From contig JAGBEA010000039.1 in assembly GCA_017937195.1 (NCBI GenBank), forward strand, positions 1-56,074: a stretch of 56,074 nt of DNA, read 5' to 3'. The notes under the pieces are model-generated. The model made no database searches. It had not been told where the DNA came from and worked only from the letters and a program-made list of their open reading frames with translations. The position numbers and the translations under genes were made by a program. This DNA comes from Oscillospiraceae bacterium (GTDB lineage Bacteria > Bacillota > Clostridia > Oscillospirales > Oscillospiraceae). Shown piece after piece: positions 2,596-26,758 of the stretch; positions within the stretch are counted from its first letter, which is position 1, and each line of letters opens with the position of its first letter.

Positions 2596-3417
2596 ATGAG
2601 CGAATGCAATCACAATTGCAGCACCTGCGGTGAAAACTGCAGCGAGCGTGAAAACAACCCCTTCCAGATCAAGCCTCTGCGTGACGGTTGCCGTGTGGGC
2701 AAGGTGTTTGGCGTGGTGTCCGGCAAGGGCGGTGTAGGCAAGTCTATGGTCACCAGCCAGCTGGCGGTGACGATGAGCCGCCGCGGTTACCGCGTGGCGG
2801 TGCTGGACGCCGACATTACCGGCCCTTCCATCCCTAAGGCTTTCGGCGTACACGAGCGCGCCTGCGGCGCCGGCGACGCCATTCTCCCCGTGGAGACCCG
2901 CACCGGCATCCAGCTGATGAGCGTGAACCTGCTGCTGGAGAACGAGACCGACCCCGTGGTGTGGCGCGGTCCCGTCATCGGCGGCGTGGTGCAGCAGTTC
3001 TGGGGCGATGTGATCTGGGAAGATGTGGACTATATGTTCGTGGATATGCCCCCCGGAACCGGCGATGTGGCGCTGAATGTGTTCCAGACCCTGCCGGTGG
3101 ATGGCGTGATCATCGTCACCTCTCCGCAGGAGCTGGTGAGCATGGTTGTGGAGAAGGCCGTGAAGATGGCACAGCTGATGAACATCCCCGTGGTGGGTCT
3201 GGTGGAGAATATGAGCTACCTCTCCTGCCCCGATTGCGGCAAGAAGCTGTATCTCTTCGGCGAGGGCAAGACCGACGAGGCCGCCGAGCGCTACGGTCTG
3301 CGCACGTTGGCCAAGATGCCTATCGATCCCGCACTTGCCAAGCTGGTGGACGCCGGCGACATCGAGTCTTTTGAGGGCAACTGGCTGGACGGCGTGGCCG
3401 ATCTGATTTCCCAGTAA
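2596..3417 (+). CDS. Mrp/Nbp35-type Fe-S cluster carrier P-loop ATPase
   Basis: A 273-residue ParA/MinD-superfamily ATPase of the Mrp (ApbC/Nbp35) group. These proteins hold a labile [4Fe-4S] cluster and pass it to apo-enzymes in the cytoplasm. The sequence has an N-terminal cysteine cluster (CNHNCSTCGENC, residues 4-15), the deviant Walker A GKGGVGKS near residue 45, the switch region DMPPGTGD and a late CPDC pair near residue 215, which is the usual cluster-binding CxxC. The start at 2596 follows AAAAAGGAG. An upstream in-frame extension overlaps the previous gene and is rejected. The N-terminal cysteine-rich tail is the Nbp35-like form common in anaerobes. Confidence 0.88.
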   Translation: MSECNHNCSTCGENCSERENNPFQIKPLRDGCRVGKVFGVVSGKGGVGKSMVTSQLAVTMSRRGYRVAVLDADITGPSIPKAFGVHERACGAGDAILPVETRTGIQLMSVNLLLENETDPVVWRGPVIGGVVQQFWGDVIWEDVDYMFVDMPPGTGDVALNVFQTLPVDGVIIVTSPQELVSMVVEKAVKMAQLMNIPVVGLVENMSYLSCPDCGKKLYLFGEGKTDEAAERYGLRTLAKMPIDPALAKLVDAGDIESFEGNWLDGVADLISQ

Positions 3418-10446: not shown

Positions 10447-12273
10447 TTATTCGGTTTCGCTCTGCTCTTTTTTTGCAAAAATCTGCTCAAACTCCTCGCC
10501 CGTCATGGTTTCGTGTGCCAGCAGATACTCTGCCACCTCCACCAGTTCGGCGCGGTACTGCCGCAAAATCTCCTCGCAGCGCGCGTATGCCTCGTCGATC
10601 ATACGGCGGATCTCCTCGTCCATCTCTGCCGCTGTCTTCTCGGAATAGGGGCGGGTCTGCGCCATAGACTTACCGATGAACACCTCATCGTGTCCGGCAT
10701 CGAAGGCCACAGCGCCGATCTTCTCGCTCATACCGTAGGTGCCCACCATCTTGCGCGCCATCGCGGTGGCCCGCTGCAGATCGTTGGAGGCGCCGGTAGA
10801 GATGTCACCCAGCATCAGCTGCTCGGCCACGCGGCCGCCCAGCAGTGTGATGATCTGCTCCTCCATATACCGCTTGGAGAGGTAGGATCGATCCTCGTCC
10901 GGCAGATAGATGGTCATACCACCTGCCTGACCGCGGGGTACGATGGTGATCTGATGCACCGGATCGTGCTCGGGCAGGGCGCGGGTAACGATGGCGTGTC
11001 CTGCCTCGTGATAGGCGGTGAGCCTGCGCTCCCGCTCAGGAACCACGCGGCTGCGCTTCTCCGGACCTGCGATCACCTTGATCACCGACTGCTGCACATC
11101 CTCCATAGTGATGGCAGCGCGGTCATTGCGGCCTGCCAGCAGCGCCGCCTCGTTCATCAGGTTCTCCAGATCCGCGCCGGTGAATCCGGGAGTGCTGCGG
11201 GCGATCTTGGCGATGTCTACATCCTCCGCCAGCGGCTTGTTGCGGACGTGGATCTGCAAGATCTCCTCACGCCCCTTGATGTCGGGCAGACCCACATAGA
11301 CCTGCCGGTCAAAGCGACCCGGGCGCAGCAGCGCCGGATCGAGAATATCCACACGGTTGGTGGCGGCCATCACCACAACGCCCTCGTTGCTGCCAAAGCC
11401 GTCCATTTCCACCAGCAGCTGGTTCAGCGTCTGCTCACGCTCATCGTGACCGCCGCCCAAGCCGCTGCCGCGCTGACGGCCCACCGCGTCGATCTCATCG
11501 ATGAACACGATGGCAGGGGCATCCTTCTTGGCCTGCGCGAACAAATCGCGCACACGGCTTGCGCCTACACCCACATACATCTCCACAAAGTCGGAGCCGG
11601 AGATGGATAGGAATTTTACACCTGCCTCACCTGCCACCGCCTTTGCCAGCAGCGTTTTACCGGTACCGGGAGGGCCCACCAACAGCACACCCTTGGGGAT
11701 ATGGGCGCCCAGATCCAGATACTTATCCGGTTCACGCAGGAAATCCACGATCTCCTGCAGCTCTTCCTTCTCCTCATCGGCGCCTGCCACATCGCGGAAG
11801 GACTTCTGGCTCTTCTCTCCTGCCTGCGTCCGCGCCTCGCCAAACCGCGCCATCCGGTCGTTCTGTACACCGGCACCGCGGTTCATAAAGCCCATAATAA
11901 AGAACAGCCCCAGCAGCACCAGACCGCAGGGCAACAAAATCTCCAGCCAGTTGGTGGAGTGGTCCGCCCAGTAGTTATAATTGGTGATGATGCCGTCCGC
12001 CGCCTGCTGCTGTACCAGCTGGTGCAGATCATCGTAGAACAGCTGGAAGCTGACCAGATCGCAGCCAACGGTGCTGCCATCGGACAGCTTGGCCGTCAAG
12101 CGCTCATCGCTGATGGAAAACTCCTGCACCTTCTCCTGCTGAAAGAGAACGCGCAGCTCATAATAGGTAACATCATTGCTCCGGCGCAGATTGCCTATCA
12201 CATTGATCAGCAACAGAATTGCCAGGCCAAACAGCAAGATCCTGCCGGGATTGATGCGTCTTTGTTCGTTCAA
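10447..12273 (-). CDS. ftsH: ATP-dependent zinc metalloprotease FtsH
   Basis: A 608-residue membrane AAA+ protease that degrades misfolded or short-lived membrane and cytoplasmic proteins. Two N-terminal membrane segments flank an external domain (segments near residues 10-30 and 105-125). The AAA domain has Walker A GPPGTGKT, Walker B IVFIDEID and SRH arginines. The peptidase has the zinc site HEAGH. The start is taken as TTG at 12273 because AAGGAGG lies nine bases before it; an in-frame ATG at 12318 would overlap lepB by 28 bases and lacks a ribosome site. It is the last gene of the block, in the conserved tilS-hpt-ftsH order with lepB inserted. Confidence 0.93.
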
Positions 12274-13481: not shown

Positions 13482-14801
13482 TCATCTCTCTATTGGGCAG
13501 ATGATGATTTCTGCCGCCTCACCGGTCTTTGCCGGCACGAATTCCAGATCTGTTCCCACAGCGTATACCGCCGCGGCCTTCCCCTCCACACGGATGCAGG
13601 GGATGTGGGCGCGCTGCTCCGGCGGGATGCCTCGCTCCGTCAGCAGCCGCTTCACGCTGCGCGCGCCGCGGCTGTCCGGCAGCGTCAGCCGGTCGCGGCT
13701 GTTCCACCGGTCCGCCTGCATCTGCGATACATCACTGCGCAGATACAGTGCGTTCTCTTTTTTCTCTGCATTGCACGGTACACGGCGCACCGTGATCTCC
13801 CAGCCGCCCCAGCAGTTTTGTCCCTCTGCCAAAGAAACGGCATCGGCAGGTGCGTTCTGTTCCGTCAGCAGCAGCTGTCCGTCGCGGCACAACGCCACCA
13901 TTCCGGCAGGCAGGCTGACCATGCCGCCGCGGCACTCCTCCGCCATACGCACCACCGCCTCTATATGGGTGGCGGACACATCCTTTTTCCCCGTCTCCAG
14001 CCGCGCCATCAGCAGCCGCACGATCCGCGGACGCAGCACACTTGGTGCCGAGCGGATACTGTCGCAGGGAAGCCGCGTCCCCTCCTTAGGCAGGTACTCC
14101 CCTGCCAGCCGGTTGAGATATTCGTCCTCGCCGCGCACGATAGCCGCCGTGCGGGCGATGTTCTGCCGCAGCGCCGGATTGATTTGCTCCAGCTCCGGCA
14201 AAACAGTGCGGCGCAGCCGGTTGCGGGCGAAGGCCATACTCTCGTTGGTCTCGTCCTCCACGTGCTGCAGGCCGTTGCGCTGCAGATACAGTTCGATCTC
14301 CTGCCGCGGCGTGTTCAGCAGCGGGCGGATCAATCTTCCGCGCACCGGCGGAATGCCGGCAAGTCCCTCCGGACCCGTGCCGCGCAGCAGGTTCAGCAGC
14401 ACCGTTTCCGCCTGATCGCCCATATGGTGGGCGGTGGCGATGCGCTGCGCACCGATCCGGTCTGCCAGCTCCTGCAAAAAGGCGTAGCGCAGCTCGCGCC
14501 CCGTTTCCTCCACGCCGCGCCCCGTCTTTTCCGCCACGGCCACAACATCCGCGCCGTCAGTATAGAAGGGCACGCGCAGCTGGCGGCACAGCCGGCGGAC
14601 AAAATCCTCATCCCGCTGCGCCGTGGGGCGCATATGGTGGTTATAGTGCGCCGCCGCCACAGCAAAGCCACAATCATCGGCGATACTGTGCAGATAATGC
14701 AGCAGACAGACGGAGTCCCGTCCGCCGGACACGGCACACAGAACGGTGCCGCCGGTGGGGGGCAGCATATTCCATTGTTCCATCCAGCCAAGAAGCTCCA
14801 T
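13482..14801 (-). CDS. tilS: tRNA(Ile)-lysidine synthetase
   Basis: A 439-residue PP-loop ATPase that converts cytidine 34 of the AUA-reading tRNA-Ile to lysidine. The PP-loop SGGRDS lies at residues 25-30 and HHMGDQAETVLLNLLRG is the second family block. The middle helical domain and the C-terminal substrate-binding domain are present, so the protein is full length. It is followed 17 bases later by hpt. Confidence 0.92.
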   Translation of the reverse strand: MELLGWMEQWNMLPPTGGTVLCAVSGGRDSVCLLHYLHSIADDCGFAVAAAHYNHHMRPTAQRDEDFVRRLCRQLRVPFYTDGADVVAVAEKTGRGVEETGRELRYAFLQELADRIGAQRIATAHHMGDQAETVLLNLLRGTGPEGLAGIPPVRGRLIRPLLNTPRQEIELYLQRNGLQHVEDETNESMAFARNRLRRTVLPELEQINPALRQNIARTAAIVRGEDEYLNRLAGEYLPKEGTRLPCDSIRSAPSVLRPRIVRLLMARLETGKKDVSATHIEAVVRMAEECRGGMVSLPAGMVALCRDGQLLLTEQNAPADAVSLAEGQNCWGGWEITVRRVPCNAEKKENALYLRSDVSQMQADRWNSRDRLTLPDSRGARSVKRLLTERGIPPEQRAHIPCIRVEGKAAAVYAVGTDLEFVPAKTGEAAEIIICPIER

Positions 14802-22417: not shown

Positions 22418-22921
22418 TTATTTCCAGCCGAAGAAATTGCGCTCCAAAAGATTACGGGCGGCAGTCTTCATATCTTCGCTGAAATTCTCGCCCTCCAGCA
22501 CCTGCCGCAGCTGCTGCTCGGTGCAGCGCTCAAAGGTACGCTCATACTTCAGCACCGGCGCATCGGGCAGTTCCTCCTTATCCGGCAGCACACCCAAACA
22601 CCACACCAGCTCCGTGCGGCGGCACTTGGGGCACACATACATGTCCAGCGGCAGCAGCGACAAACTGTCGGGGTCATCCTCGTCTTCAAAAAGACTCATA
22701 AGGCTGCCCGGTCCGTAGTAGCCCTCCAGCTGCAGCTTAAGATTTCGGAAAAACTTCATCTCCGTATCAGTGCAGCGCAGGCACATCCGTGGCTCGCGAG
22801 GCTCGGCAGGAGCCGACTCTTTCTCCTCCGTCGGCACACCAAACATCGGCGTTTCCGGTTCATCGCCGCCAAAGAGGCGAAACTTCTTCTTTTTGGGGGC
22901 GTAATCGGGATACATCGCCAT
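22418..22921 (-). CDS. Zinc-ribbon protein, paralogue of the next gene
   Basis: A 167-residue soluble protein. Two Cys pairs (CLRC near residue 47, CPKC near 96) can form a split zinc ribbon. The C-terminal 36 residues, YERTFERCTEQQLRQVL to the end, closely match the C-terminus of the neighbouring gene product. The N-terminus is basic and proline-rich. I know no function; a small zinc-binding adaptor is one possibility. It begins with GAGGAGG and lies 19 bases after its paralogue. Confidence 0.65.
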   Translation of the reverse strand: MAMYPDYAPKKKKFRLFGGDEPETPMFGVPTEEKESAPAEPREPRMCLRCTDTEMKFFRNLKLQLEGYYGPGSLMSLFEDEDDPDSLSLLPLDMYVCPKCRRTELVWCLGVLPDKEELPDAPVLKYERTFERCTEQQLRQVLEGENFSEDMKTAARNLLERNFFGWK

Positions 22922-22940: not shown

Positions 22941-23291
22941 TCATTTCTCTCTGCGGCGCAGCAGATTCCGCGCCGCCTTTTTGGCGTCCTCTACATAACC
23001 TTTGCCATCGATGACCTTTTGCAGCTGCTTTTCGGAGTAGTCACGGAAGGTATATTCAAACTGCTTCACCGGGTCATCGATGCTCTCCCGTTCCGCCTGC
23101 TCCTGCTCCAACTGCTCGACGGCGGTCAGCGGCTCCACCCATTCCAGATGGCGGCAGCGCGGACAGCGATACAGCTCCACACCAATATAGTCCGGCGACG
23201 GAGAGATCAGCTTTTCCTTCATATACAGAACGCCTGCGTAGCGCAGGGCCATTTCCTCCCGACAGCTGGGGCAAATACGCACCTCGCCCAT
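22941..23291 (-). CDS. Zinc-ribbon protein, paralogue of the previous gene
   Basis: A 116-residue protein with CPSC near residue 7 and CPRC near residue 40, a split zinc ribbon, and the C-terminal helix FEYTFRDYSEKQLQKVIDG ending in ARNLLRR that it shares with the adjacent protein. The start at 23291 follows AGGAGG; an upstream in-frame start is rejected because it runs into the next gene. It lies 11 bases downstream of the DUF6440 gene. A tandem duplication followed by divergence explains the pair. Confidence 0.7.
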   Translation of the reverse strand: MGEVRICPSCREEMALRYAGVLYMKEKLISPSPDYIGVELYRCPRCRHLEWVEPLTAVEQLEQEQAERESIDDPVKQFEYTFRDYSEKQLQKVIDGKGYVEDAKKAARNLLRRREK

Positions 23292-23302
23292 ACCGCACCT
23301 CC

Positions 23303-23497
23303 TTAATACTCCGGCGCTTCCGGTGCAGACCGATGCAACAGCGGCTTGCCCTCGGCATCCACCAGCACGCACATACCGCCGGCATAGCCCGATGCGTGGA
23401 AGAAATACTGCACGCCGGTCTGGGTATCCACCCAGATCTCGCTGCCGCTCATCGCGCCGTCACTATGCACCTTTTCAAAACGCTTTTCTTTTGCCAT
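23303..23497 (-). CDS. DUF6440-family small protein
   Basis: A 64-residue protein with the compact pattern EIWVDTQTGVQYFFHASGY followed by GGMCVLVDAEGKPL, which I recognise as the DUF6440 type, small single-domain proteins of unknown role. A good GGAGGA ribosome site precedes the ATG at 23497. It heads a three-gene cluster with the two zinc-ribbon paralogues. Confidence 0.7.
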   Translation of the reverse strand: MAKEKRFEKVHSDGAMSGSEIWVDTQTGVQYFFHASGYAGGMCVLVDAEGKPLLHRSAPEAPEY

Positions 23498-23515: not shown

Positions 23516-23545
23516 AAAAAAGGGCAGGCTGCCGCCTGCCCTTTT
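23516..23545 (-). terminator. Terminator after the SPFH gene
   Basis: Stem AAAAGGGCAGGC/GCCTGCCCTTTT with a 4-base loop right after the SPFH stop, with a T run on the minus strand. Confidence 0.8.
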
Positions 23546-23556
23546 CCGTTGTGTGT

Positions 23557-24477
23557 TTACTCGGCGGCCTTGTCGCTGCCCAGCAGACCCTGCGCGGCAC
23601 CTGCAAGACCTGCAAGGCCCTGAATCTCGCTGGGGATGATGATCTTGGTGGCCTTGCCGTCGGCTGCCTTCTGGAATGCCTCCAGCGCCTTGAGCTTAAT
23701 GACCTGATCGTTGGGAGCGGCCTCGTTCAGCATACGCATAGCGTCTGCCAGTGCCTGCTGCACCTTGAGGATGGACTCCGCCTCAGCCTCGGCAGCCATA
23801 ATGCGTGCCTGCTTGGCGGCATCGGCGCGCAGAATCGTAGACTGCTTTTCGCCCTCTGCCACCAGAATCTGGCTGGCCTTCTGACCTTCTGCCTGCAGGA
23901 TGGATTCGCGGCGCTCACGCTCGGCCTTCATCTGCTTTTCCATAGCGTTCTGGATCTCACGGGGAGGCAGAATGTTCTTCAGCTCCACGCGGTTGACCTT
24001 GATGCCCCAAGGATCGGTGGCCTCGTCCAGAATGGCGCGCATCTTGGCATTGATCACATCACGGCTGGTCAGGCTCTGATCCAGCTCCATATCGCCGATG
24101 ATGTTACGCAGCGTGGTGGCGGTCAGATTCTCGATAGCGTTCATGGGGTACTCCACGCCGTAGGTGTACAGCTTGGGGTCGGTGATCTGGAAGTAGATGA
24201 CGGTGTCGATCTGCATGGTGACATTATCCTTGGTGATTACGGGCTGGGGATCAAAATCCGCCACCTGCTCCTTCAGCGACACTTTCTTGACGATACGGTC
24301 AATGAAGGGGATCTTCACGTGGATGCCAACACCCACCACCGCCTGGAACTTACCAAGGCGCTCCACCACATAGGCGCGGGACTGCTGCACCACATAGATG
24401 TTCTTCACGACCACCAGCAGCACCAACACCACGATGATCGCAACAACGATGAAACCAAATCCAGGGATTCCGGGCAT
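23557..24477 (-). CDS. Stomatin-like SPFH/Band 7 membrane protein
   Basis: A 306-residue protein of the SPFH (stomatin/prohibitin/flotillin/HflKC) superfamily, closest in pattern to QmcA/stomatin. An N-terminal membrane anchor (residues 8-28) is followed by the band 7 domain with VVERLGKFQAVVGVG and DQSLTSRDVINAKMRAILDEATDPWGIKV, then the coiled-coil region with MEKQMKAERERRESILQAEGQ. Such proteins form ring-like membrane scaffolds. The adjacent upstream gene encodes an NfeD-type protein, the usual partner of stomatins, 41 bases away in the same direction. Confidence 0.92.
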   Translation of the reverse strand: MPGIPGFGFIVVAIIVVLVLLVVVKNIYVVQQSRAYVVERLGKFQAVVGVGIHVKIPFIDRIVKKVSLKEQVADFDPQPVITKDNVTMQIDTVIYFQITDPKLYTYGVEYPMNAIENLTATTLRNIIGDMELDQSLTSRDVINAKMRAILDEATDPWGIKVNRVELKNILPPREIQNAMEKQMKAERERRESILQAEGQKASQILVAEGEKQSTILRADAAKQARIMAAEAEAESILKVQQALADAMRMLNEAAPNDQVIKLKALEAFQKAADGKATKIIIPSEIQGLAGLAGAAQGLLGSDKAAE

Positions 24478-24518: not shown

Positions 24519-25343
24519 TTATACTTCTTCCTCCACAAAAAGGCGGACGCCCTCCATACGGGTGACGCGCACCATCGTGCCTGCGGCGATGTTCTCGCCG
24601 TTTTCGCTGCGGGCGGACCAGGTCTTGCCGTCCACATACACCGCGCCCACGGGCACTGTGTTGTCAATACTCTCCGTCACGCGGGCGGTAGCGCCCAGCA
24701 CGCGGTCGGCATTGGTGGCAGTGGTGTCCTGATTGATATACTTGACCACCAGCGGACGGGCAGCGATCAGCGCCGCAATAGATACCACAAAGAATACCAC
24801 CAGCTGCAGCCAGATCTGTCCGCCGCACATTGCCACGATCAATCCGCCCAGCGCACCCACCACGAACCAAATAGAGGTAAGTCCCACGGTGGCAGCCTCC
24901 AGCACGCCGAAGACCACCATAGCACCCACCCAGATCAACGGGATCATATCTGTACTTCCTCCTTTCAAAAACGCGCCGATCAGCAGCGAGAGCACCGTCG
25001 TACCCAACACCGCACCCAGCGCCAGCCATTTGTTGGCAGGGGACAAATTGGAGAGGAAGGCTCCCAGTGCCGTCTGCAGCGTAGTCTTTTTCAGCGGCGG
25101 CTTCTCTTTTTCAGTGGAATCTGTCTGTTCCGCCGTGCAGCGGGGGATCTCCTCACAAAAGAGGTCATTGGGCGTCACACCGTAGTAGTTGCAGATGTAA
25201 AGGATCTTCTCCATCTCGGGGTAACCCCGTCCGGACTCCCACTTGGATACCGCCTGACGGGAAACCTTCAGCTCCTCGGCAAACTGCTCCTGTGTCAATC
25301 CTGCTGCGCGGCGTACCGCCTGCAGCTGATCACCAAACGACAT
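24519..25343 (-). CDS. XRE helix-turn-helix domain fused to an NfeD-like membrane protein
   Basis: A 274-residue fusion. Residues 1-62 are a cro/C1-type HTH (LTQEQFAEELKVSRQAVSKW, then YICNYYGVTPNDLF). After a charged linker come hydrophobic helices near 94-117 and 122-185, matching the NfeD membrane part. The C-terminal 60-70 residues (starting DRVLGATARVTESIDN) form the OB-fold NfeD domain ending VRLFVEEEV. NfeD proteins usually lack a DNA-binding domain and pair with stomatins. The following gene encodes that partner. The start at 25343 follows AAGGAGG; translation upstream of it has no family match. Two copies of a CAACTTGAA dyad-like motif lie upstream, probable self-binding sites. Confidence 0.85.
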   Translation of the reverse strand: MSFGDQLQAVRRAAGLTQEQFAEELKVSRQAVSKWESGRGYPEMEKILYICNYYGVTPNDLFCEEIPRCTAEQTDSTEKEKPPLKKTTLQTALGAFLSNLSPANKWLALGAVLGTTVLSLLIGAFLKGGSTDMIPLIWVGAMVVFGVLEAATVGLTSIWFVVGALGGLIVAMCGGQIWLQLVVFFVVSIAALIAARPLVVKYINQDTTATNADRVLGATARVTESIDNTVPVGAVYVDGKTWSARSENGENIAAGTMVRVTRMEGVRLFVEEEV

Positions 25344-25371
25344 CGGCGCTCCCTCCTTCCTCTTTGACTCT

Positions 25372-25459
25372 ATGATAGCGCACCAAGGCACGCGCCGTCT
25401 ACCAACTTGAATTTGCGCTGGGCAATTTTCTCGCCATTTTCTGCGCAACTTGAAGTTGC
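25372..25459 (-). promoter_or_regulatory. Promoter and putative operators of the HTH-NfeD gene
   Basis: A TATCAT -10 box (25372-25377, minus strand) is preceded by two related sites, CAACTTGAATTTGCG (25403-25417) and the near-perfect dyad GCAACTTGAAGTTGC (25445-25459). The nine bases CAACTTGAA are identical in both, 43 bases apart (four helical turns). The first lies just behind the -35 region. They are good candidates for binding by the HTH domain of the adjacent gene. The -35 itself is poor. Confidence 0.5.
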
Positions 25460-25608: not shown

Positions 25609-25642
25609 ATTGTTGTAAAATAACGCAAGTGAGGTGACCGCG

Positions 25643-26758
25643 ATGGCGAAATATCTGATTCCCTGCCTGCTGGGTCTGGAAAAACTGGTTGGCGACGAGA
25701 TCAAACGGCTGGGTCTGCAGGACGTGCAGGTGGAAAACGGGCGCGTGCTGTGCCGCGGCACAGACGCTGACGCCGCGCGGCTGAACATCAATCTGCGCTG
25801 CGGCGCACGGGTGCTGCTGGTGCTGGGTGAGTTTCCCGCCCGCAGCTTTGAAGAGCTGTTTCAGGGCACGAAAGCCATCGCGTGGGAGGACTATCTGCCC
25901 CGCGATGCCGCCTTCCCCGTGAAGGGCTACTCTATCTCTTCCCAGCTCCACGCCGTCAGCGCCTGCCAGTCCATCATCAAAAAGGCTATGGTGGAGCGGC
26001 TGAAGGCACACTACCATATGGAGCAGTTCCCCGAGACGGGCACGAAATATCAGGTGCGCTTCTCGCTGTTCAAGGATCAGGCGGCCATCTGTCTGGATAC
26101 CAGCGGCGAGGGGCTGTATAAGCGGGGCTACCGCGCTGTGGGTGTAGAGGCGCCGCTGCGCGAAACGCTGGCAGCCGCTATGGTGATTTTGTCCCGCTAC
26201 CGGGGTCGTGATCCCTTCTGTGATCCCTTCTGCGGCAGCGGCACCATCCCCATCGAGGCGGCGCTGATCGCCAAGAACCGCGCGCCCGGTCTGGATCGCA
26301 GCTTCGACGCTCAGAAGTGGGGCTTCCTCTCCGCCAATATTTGGTTGGAAGCCGCGGAAGAGGCCATGGATAAGGAGTTCCACGGCACCTACGATATCTG
26401 GGGCGGCGATGTGAATCCCAAGGCAGTGGCCATCGCCCGCGACAATGCCCGCAAAGCAGGCGTGGAGGATATCGTGCGCTTTGAGGTGGCGGATATGAAA
26501 GACTTCCGCCGTGACAGCGAATACGGTCAGTTGGTAACCAATCCTCCCTACGGCGAACGCCTGCTGGAGCGGCAGGAGGCAGAGGAGCTGTACCGCCAGC
26601 TGGGCAAAATGTGGCAGACACTGCCGCCCAAATGGCGCACGCTGGTGCTCAGCAGCCACACCGAGTTTGAGCGCACCTTCGGCCGCACCGCCGACAAGAA
26701 GCGCAAGCTATACAACGGCATGATCAAGTGCGATCTGTTTATGTATGGCAACGTGTGA
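25643..26758 (+). CDS. THUMP-domain class I SAM-dependent 23S rRNA methyltransferase (RlmL/YpsC family)
   Basis: A 371-residue RNA methyltransferase of the YpsC/RlmKL type, predicted to make a base N2-guanosine methylation in 23S rRNA. An N-terminal THUMP domain (about residues 1-160) is followed by the Rossmann methyltransferase with FCDPFCGSGTIPIEAA (SAM site near residue 195) and the catalytic NPPY motif (VTNPPYGERL near residue 300). ATG 25643 follows GAGGTG. The last 14 codons (26719 onward) are duplicated 208 bases downstream with only two synonymous changes. Confidence 0.9.
   Translation: MAKYLIPCLLGLEKLVGDEIKRLGLQDVQVENGRVLCRGTDADAARLNINLRCGARVLLVLGEFPARSFEELFQGTKAIAWEDYLPRDAAFPVKGYSISSQLHAVSACQSIIKKAMVERLKAHYHMEQFPETGTKYQVRFSLFKDQAAICLDTSGEGLYKRGYRAVGVEAPLRETLAAAMVILSRYRGRDPFCDPFCGSGTIPIEAALIAKNRAPGLDRSFDAQKWGFLSANIWLEAAEEAMDKEFHGTYDIWGGDVNPKAVAIARDNARKAGVEDIVRFEVADMKDFRRDSEYGQLVTNPPYGERLLERQEAEELYRQLGKMWQTLPPKWRTLVLSSHTEFERTFGRTADKKRKLYNGMIKCDLFMYGNV

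Follow-up and report, generated by a model that had tools for sequence, protein, structure and literature searches.

An XRE helix-turn-helix domain fused to NfeD beside its stomatin-like SPFH partner in Oscillospiraceae: a putative membrane-bound regulator with paired upstream palindromes

An open reading frame in the window, by which we mean the whole 56,074-nucleotide stretch of Oscillospiraceae DNA analysed here, joins an XRE-type helix-turn-helix (HTH) domain to an NfeD membrane protein next to the gene for its stomatin-like SPFH partner, and is preceded by a pair of palindromes that accompany the fusion across genomes. On the best reading of the sequences, the fusion would be a transmembrane regulator of the BcrR kind in which an SPFH partner forms the membrane half, and it would have a definable small regulon. 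The original prediction was of a one-component switch acting on its own SPFH operon; of this, autoregulation gains strong comparative support, as the tandem palindromes track the fusion and hold a fixed place relative to the promoter, while DNA binding, its sign and a signal from SPFH/NfeD are the parts that we infer.

Architecture of the fusion and its SPFH partner

The fusion gene lies on the minus strand within an open frame spanning 25448 to 24519, and its translation likely starts at the ATG at 25343, giving 274 aa (Table 1). Pfam places HTH_31 (55.8 bits, cut-off 27) and HTH_3 (51.8 bits, cut-off 23) on residues 3–61 and NfeD on residues 212–271 (59.6 bits, cut-off 29.1), so that the predicted identity of the C-terminus was upheld by domain search. 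Assignment to the XRE/Cro-CI family is supported by the HTH_3-type domain exceeding its cut-off and by solved XRE relatives recovered both by sequence and by fold. The NfeD domain is matched at E ≤ 0.001 in all 22 aligned fusion members, and the fusion is the sole NfeD match at this threshold in the window's assembly (1.6 Mb, 92% complete).

An AlphaFold2 model built from the window protein and 21 relatives (mean pLDDT 77.9, with a pTM of 0.36 at which the arrangement of the domains is not predicted) contains the HTH at residues 3–61, a loose low-confidence linker, a short helix at 89–99, four long helices (102–127, 134–153, 155–172 and 177–203) and an OB barrel at 211–272. The last three long helices are, by AlphaFold2 prediction, the membrane helices that stand ahead of the OB domain in the NfeD family. 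Together with Pfam the model thus bears out a single frame that joins an XRE HTH, membrane helices and a C-terminal NfeD OB domain, and it places an HTH and a multi-pass membrane domain in one chain as in transmembrane one-component regulators; by hydropathy alone, three membrane segments are seen in 16 of the 22 members, while five members show four and one shows two, and the charges counted in the loops did not settle the topology. The top Foldseek match of the model is the E. coli QmcA-YbbJ SPFH-NfeD complex (8z5g, E 6.9e-06), followed by three NfeD-type OB domains and then mainly by XRE domains.

The adjacent gene, 41 nt from the fusion gene, had been read as encoding a stomatin-like SPFH protein, in agreement with its Band_7 match (Table 1); among solved structures its sequence comes closest to that of E. 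coli QmcA (2.7e-59). An SPFH motif occurs downstream of the fusion gene in 29/29 fusion loci as judged by sequence motif, and in the window by Pfam as well. The hairpin behind the SPFH gene is one of 3 terminator-like hairpins in the scanned region, where 2.1 were expected. Just past it a 64-aa DUF6440 protein is encoded (23306–23497, minus strand), and two small proteins further on (22418–22921 and 22941–23372, both minus strand) both carry paired CxxC motifs of zinc-ribbon-like type and resemble each other in their C-terminal stretch; they look like paralogues by eye, and they match no Pfam family over its cut-off. On the other side, a divergent gene with RlmL-like methyltransferase domains (25634–26758, plus strand) shares with the fusion gene the intergenic region that holds the operators.

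Table 1 Features of the fusion locus, in window coordinates
Feature	Position	Strand	Description
HTH-NfeD fusion gene	24519..25343	-	274 aa; XRE HTH, linker, four predicted membrane helices, NfeD OB
Ribosome-binding site AGGAGG of the fusion gene	25352..25357	-	8 nt 5' of the ATG; good; read from the sequence
HTH domain, residues 1–62	25158..25343	-	Pfam and dN/dS; most constrained part of the protein
NfeD OB domain, residues 212–272	24528..24710	-	AlphaFold2, Pfam (partner-binding according to Pfam), Foldseek
Stomatin-like SPFH (Band_7) gene	23557..24477	-	306 aa; Pfam 149.6 bits (cut-off 23.6)
Terminator-like hairpin and T run	23523..23536	-	just 3' of the SPFH gene; consensus match only
Promoter P2 (predicted)	25372..25401	-	-35 TAGACG directly after O2, spacer 18, -10 TATCAT
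-10-like TATAAT of a possible upstream promoter P1	25486..25491	-	-35 weak here
Operator O1 (putative)	25446..25458	.	perfect palindrome CAACTTNAAGTTG
Operator O2 (putative)	25403..25415	.	CAACTTNAAGTTG palindrome with one mismatch; 43 bp from O1, centre to centre

Distribution, origin and constraint of the fusion

The fusion is rare within its family. A survey of 200 family genomes found matches to the query in 198, and the full-length fusion, in a count that very divergent fusions could escape, in eight of the 200 among the matches listed (G000, G036, G187, G154, G080, G034, G140 and G005); the other best matches among those listed start at residue 39 or later, nearly all at about residue 130, which corresponds to NfeD alone. 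In a named genome collection 80 loci were kept out of 99 confirmed, and 21 more full-length fusions were used (L053–L064 and L066–L074), labelled Oscillospiraceae, Oscillibacter, Dysosmobacter and uncultured Clostridia and including one from an isolate, Oscillibacter valericigenes An411 (L066). L065, whose contig begins inside the gene, was excluded both from the fusion set and from the control. The 29 fusion loci used (the window and 28 others) are all distinct, so that the architecture has 28 further full-length copies in Oscillospiraceae and relatives, and a sequencing error or artefactual joining of two genes at this frame is ruled out. A wider scan of the class matched Pfam NfeD in 306 of 391 genomes, and among the matches listed three frames measured 250–350 aa: the window fusion, G617 and G818. 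The latter two were rejected as further fusions, no HTH being visible by eye, and no other HTH-NfeD frame occurs among the matches listed for the 391 class genomes.

One genome of the same genus, G125, encodes an unfused NfeD with 66% identity that begins just before the counterpart of the second membrane helix of the fusion. On a tree of the NfeD core (109 rows and 149 columns, made by a quick method and with many open forks) this locus (L010) is nested inside a fusion clade, and it has probably lost its regulatory half, as it has neither the HTH nor the extra helix. A single fusion clade was rejected, given that the same tree needs 7 state changes, at least 3 of them forced by starred branches. 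We nevertheless regard one origin of the fusion followed by loss or transfer as more likely, though not proven, than repeated identical fusion, because an NLS motif stands ahead of the extra helix in 29/29 fusion loci. A separate stretch, G124:C28:5285-6010, matches fusion residues 39–271 with six internal stops and is either a decayed fusion or an alignment artefact.

Selection differs among the parts of the protein. Across the 231 pairs formed by 22 sequences, the HTH has a median dN/dS of 0.18, the OB domain one of 0.30, the membrane parts 0.44–0.46 and the linker 0.91; the recognition helix reads SRQAV in 22/22 aligned members and SRQSV in L003 and L004. This combination of the lowest dN/dS and a conserved recognition helix indicates that the fused HTH is in use.

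Paired putative operators and a linked predicted promoter

The two putative operators upstream of the fusion gene were compared across loci by a pair score that takes the best two CAACTTNAAGTTG-like sites 28–46 bp apart and is 24 for a perfect pair. With a consensus derived from the window and its nearest relatives, and with the loci counted without correction for relatedness, the score was at least 17 in 28 of 29 fusion loci and at least 18 in 26; in shuffles the 99th percentile was 16–17 and the maximum 19. L005 and L006, which score 17, are weak, lying over the 99th percentile of their shuffles (16) and under the shuffle maximum, and L072 is a fusion locus that has no operators (score 14). 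Upstream of unfused NfeD genes the pair was found in none of 79 loci, the highest score being 16. This control, which replaces an earlier one of 59 loci with a rough start rule, scored 79 of 80 loci and skipped L097 for having too little upstream sequence.

The 26 loci that score at least 18 fall into two spacings, 30–34 bp in 13 and 41–43 bp in 13. Such distances correspond to about three or four helical turns and would bring both sites onto one face of the DNA; Rayleigh p-values for this spacing ignore relatedness and are not relied on. A strict tandem pattern was found in 4 of the 200 family genomes, all of them fusion carriers (4/8 known fusion genomes and 0/192 others), and its reversed control gave no match in the 200. 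A lone palindrome with one mismatch allowed was not enriched over its reversed control in seven of eight genomes, the exception being G140 (9 to 0); in the window's genome the counts were 4 to 1. Single one-mismatch palindromes in G080 (C12, C42), G036 (C11), G154 (C5, C12), G140 (C19) and G000 (C39) were dropped as chance because they lie in or over open frames and have no tandem layout; those at G005 C11/C13/C16, G125 C1, G036 C12 and G140 C24:2728 were left out of that assessment.

The inner operator is linked to a predicted promoter. When the 29 loci are anchored on the GTTGGTGG-like end of this operator, which is present in all, its TGG or TAG stands where the -35 element should start, and a -10 hexamer follows this -35 by 16–18 nt in 28 of the 29 (500 shuffles: mean 1, maximum 4). 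The centre of the inner site would therefore lie at about -43 relative to the predicted promoter, next to a weak -35. The GGTGG end may be part of the promoter and not of protein recognition, since the outer site ends in TTGCGC instead. A P1-like -10 hexamer lies upstream of O1 in 26 of the 29 loci.

A candidate second target gene and a small candidate regulon

The only other exact palindrome in the window's genome (G000:C50:13607) is the inner site of a full tandem operator and promoter, which precede a gene whose 268-aa product has a zinc ribbon at its N-terminus as well as a hydrophobic segment; the neighbours of this gene resemble rplQ and secG by eye. The same tandem operator and promoter also precede zinc-ribbon homologues in G556, G557, G558 and others. 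A homologue is present in 22 of 30 genomes searched (the 29 with the fusion and G125), and in 13 of the 21 fusion genomes that have it the operator and promoter score at least 21 (shuffles: maximum 20, 99th percentile 17), one of the 13, L202, having an odd geometry. The remaining eight loci, mostly distant homologues, score below 21, one at 18 and seven at background. Scores were likewise at background for the second zinc-ribbon copies in two fusion genomes and for the zinc-ribbon gene of the same-genus G125, the sole unfused control. The gene itself is rare: at E 1e-12 it occurs in 4 of the 200 family genomes, which all belong to a single genus. Several of its promoters have a good -35 (TGGACA).

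Across 21 fusion genomes a relaxed tandem pattern gave 34 matches and its control 36. Sixteen of the 34 are the fusion's own promoter, 16 resemble chance and two resemble further targets, namely the zinc-ribbon gene of G556 and a gene for a DUF2812 protein in G575. In G140 a tandem site lies ahead of a 112-aa gene, and contig 48 of the same genome (L180) has tandem operators at 3349–3393 and 12032–12076 and a palindrome at 13574–13586 at the contig end; the L180 operators precede similar-looking membrane- or lipoprotein-type genes, which may represent a locally larger regulon in G140. Five target-side proteins were scanned and matched no Pfam family over its cut-off. As the lone palindrome is mostly unenriched and the relaxed tandem pattern is no commoner than its control, the signal appears to be a tandem site at a few promoters and not a large regulon; any regulon of the fusion would be small.

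Proposed mechanism and alternatives

We consider it likely that the fusion is a membrane-bound regulator acting at O1/O2-type sites, whether as activator or repressor. By gaining an XRE HTH together with a linker and an additional membrane helix, the NfeD protein that partners a stomatin-like SPFH protein would have become a transmembrane one-component regulator. Unfused relatives begin near the counterpart of the fusion's second membrane helix; having three helices and a cytosolic OB domain, they would have their N-terminus outside, and the extra helix would serve to place the HTH in the cytoplasm. The NfeD OB domain of S. aureus is cytosolic, dimerises and binds flotillin (PMC11222466), and since it dimerises and faces the cytoplasm we posit that the fusion is dimeric, its HTH most likely binding both palindromes, which would share one face of the DNA. 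The bound inner site would then control the promoter of the fusion's own HTH-NfeD/SPFH operon and, in closer relatives, the fusion would also control that of the zinc-ribbon gene. Class II activators and lambda CI at OR2 occupy a position like that of the inner site. Activation by the fusion, a finely balanced proposition, is favoured over repression because of this position and because the -35 is kept at the non-consensus TGG/TAG.

What the regulator senses would probably be the condition of the SPFH-NfeD assembly, with the HTH being held or released accordingly. The QmcA complex consists of 26 copies (PMC12624060), and holding the regulator in or at a QmcA-like cage would be a plausible off state. 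We tentatively advance, as a possibility that falls short of probable, a self-reporting microdomain in which a QmcA-like SPFH cage holds the OB domain of the regulator and, when the scaffold is engaged elsewhere or scarce, HTH dimers reach O1/O2 and raise the scaffold together with a small envelope regulon. If this is true, a raft scaffold would set its own abundance without a sigma factor or a two-component system.

The same protein and sites could also work with the opposite sign, as a sub-case of the regulator favoured here. In such an autorepressor, which we hold to be rather unlikely, O2 binding would hinder the P2 -35 and, with O1, block read-through from P1, until the protein is released by envelope stress or by engagement of SPFH. 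Repressors are common among XRE proteins, O2 abuts the -35, the operators lie between the P1-like and P2 promoters, and several zinc-ribbon P2 boxes are near consensus, all of which fits repression. However, O2 sits just upstream of the promoter core and not over it, and the -35 of the own operon is weak and kept as TGG/TAG, unlike that of a promoter that needs only silencing.

Alternatively, the palindromes could be the sites of a different XRE regulator, a soluble one whose recognition helix is similar, leaving the fused HTH as a leftover or a dimerisation module only. In its favour, the genomes encode further proteins of the XRE kind, the window's genome alone having 12 matches to the query, but the sites follow the fusion, being absent from all 79 unfused NfeD loci including that of the same-genus G125 and, as the strict pattern, from the 192 other family genomes; the HTH, moreover, is the most constrained region and keeps its recognition helix (SRQAV in 22 members, SRQSV in L003 and L004), which together make this explanation improbable. 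It is very improbable indeed that the protein simply partners SPFH as other NfeD proteins do while its fused domain has no function, or that the assembly is chimeric: although such a reading would suit the rarity of the fusion (8/200 family genomes among the matches listed), it is opposed by the 29 distinct loci with isolate An411 among them, by purifying selection on the HTH and by the conserved operators.

Relation to known systems and significance

BcrR is of the XRE type, with four helices and paired inverted repeats. The fusion, as predicted, resembles it in combining DNA-binding and multi-pass membrane domains in one protein that would act from the membrane, a likeness at the level of predicted architecture. 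It differs in that its membrane half is an NfeD with a C-terminal OB domain and that its operon encodes a membrane scaffold, whereas that of BcrR encodes an ABC transporter. BcrR-type transmembrane one-component regulators of Enterococcus are included in a survey of the field (PMC10269533), and BcrR has been shown to interact with bacitracin directly and to activate the RNA polymerase of B. subtilis in vitro (PMC3968067).

SPFH-NfeD operons such as E. coli QmcA-YbbJ, S. aureus FloA-NfeD and NfeD1a-SPFH1a (PMC2636767) share with the fusion locus the joint occurrence of NfeD and SPFH genes and the OB domain. Unlike the fusion, they are described without mention of a DNA-binding domain in the accessible portions of PMC2636767 and PMC11222466, the terms helix-turn-helix and HTH being absent from the former paper. 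Such operons have separate regulators in Bacillus (sigma W; PMC8581546) and Salmonella (SdiA; PMC11619404). In LytTR systems some Bacteroides operons similarly encode a membrane protein with an NfeD-like domain along with a DNA-binding regulator, as far as the available text describes them (PMC6193735), but these comprise two proteins, a regulator of LytTR type, DUF2154 and direct repeats, whereas the fusion is one XRE-NfeD protein with palindromes and an SPFH partner. No separate-protein LytTR domain was found here, HTH_3 sitting in the NfeD chain itself by Pfam.

The accessible open-access literature yielded no description of an HTH-NfeD fusion, which the architecture pages of domain databases may list, and no paper on membrane-bound one-component XRE regulators. 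What appears new here, judged from comparative genomics, is the palindrome pair that tracks the fusion, the promoter linked to it and the second target gene. SPFH-NfeD pairs are very widespread in bacteria (PMC11222466), and the operators, the second target and the unfused sister species would together offer a ready reporter of what an SPFH-NfeD assembly responds to. The fusion would also bring the partner of a membrane scaffold into the class of multi-pass transcription factors.
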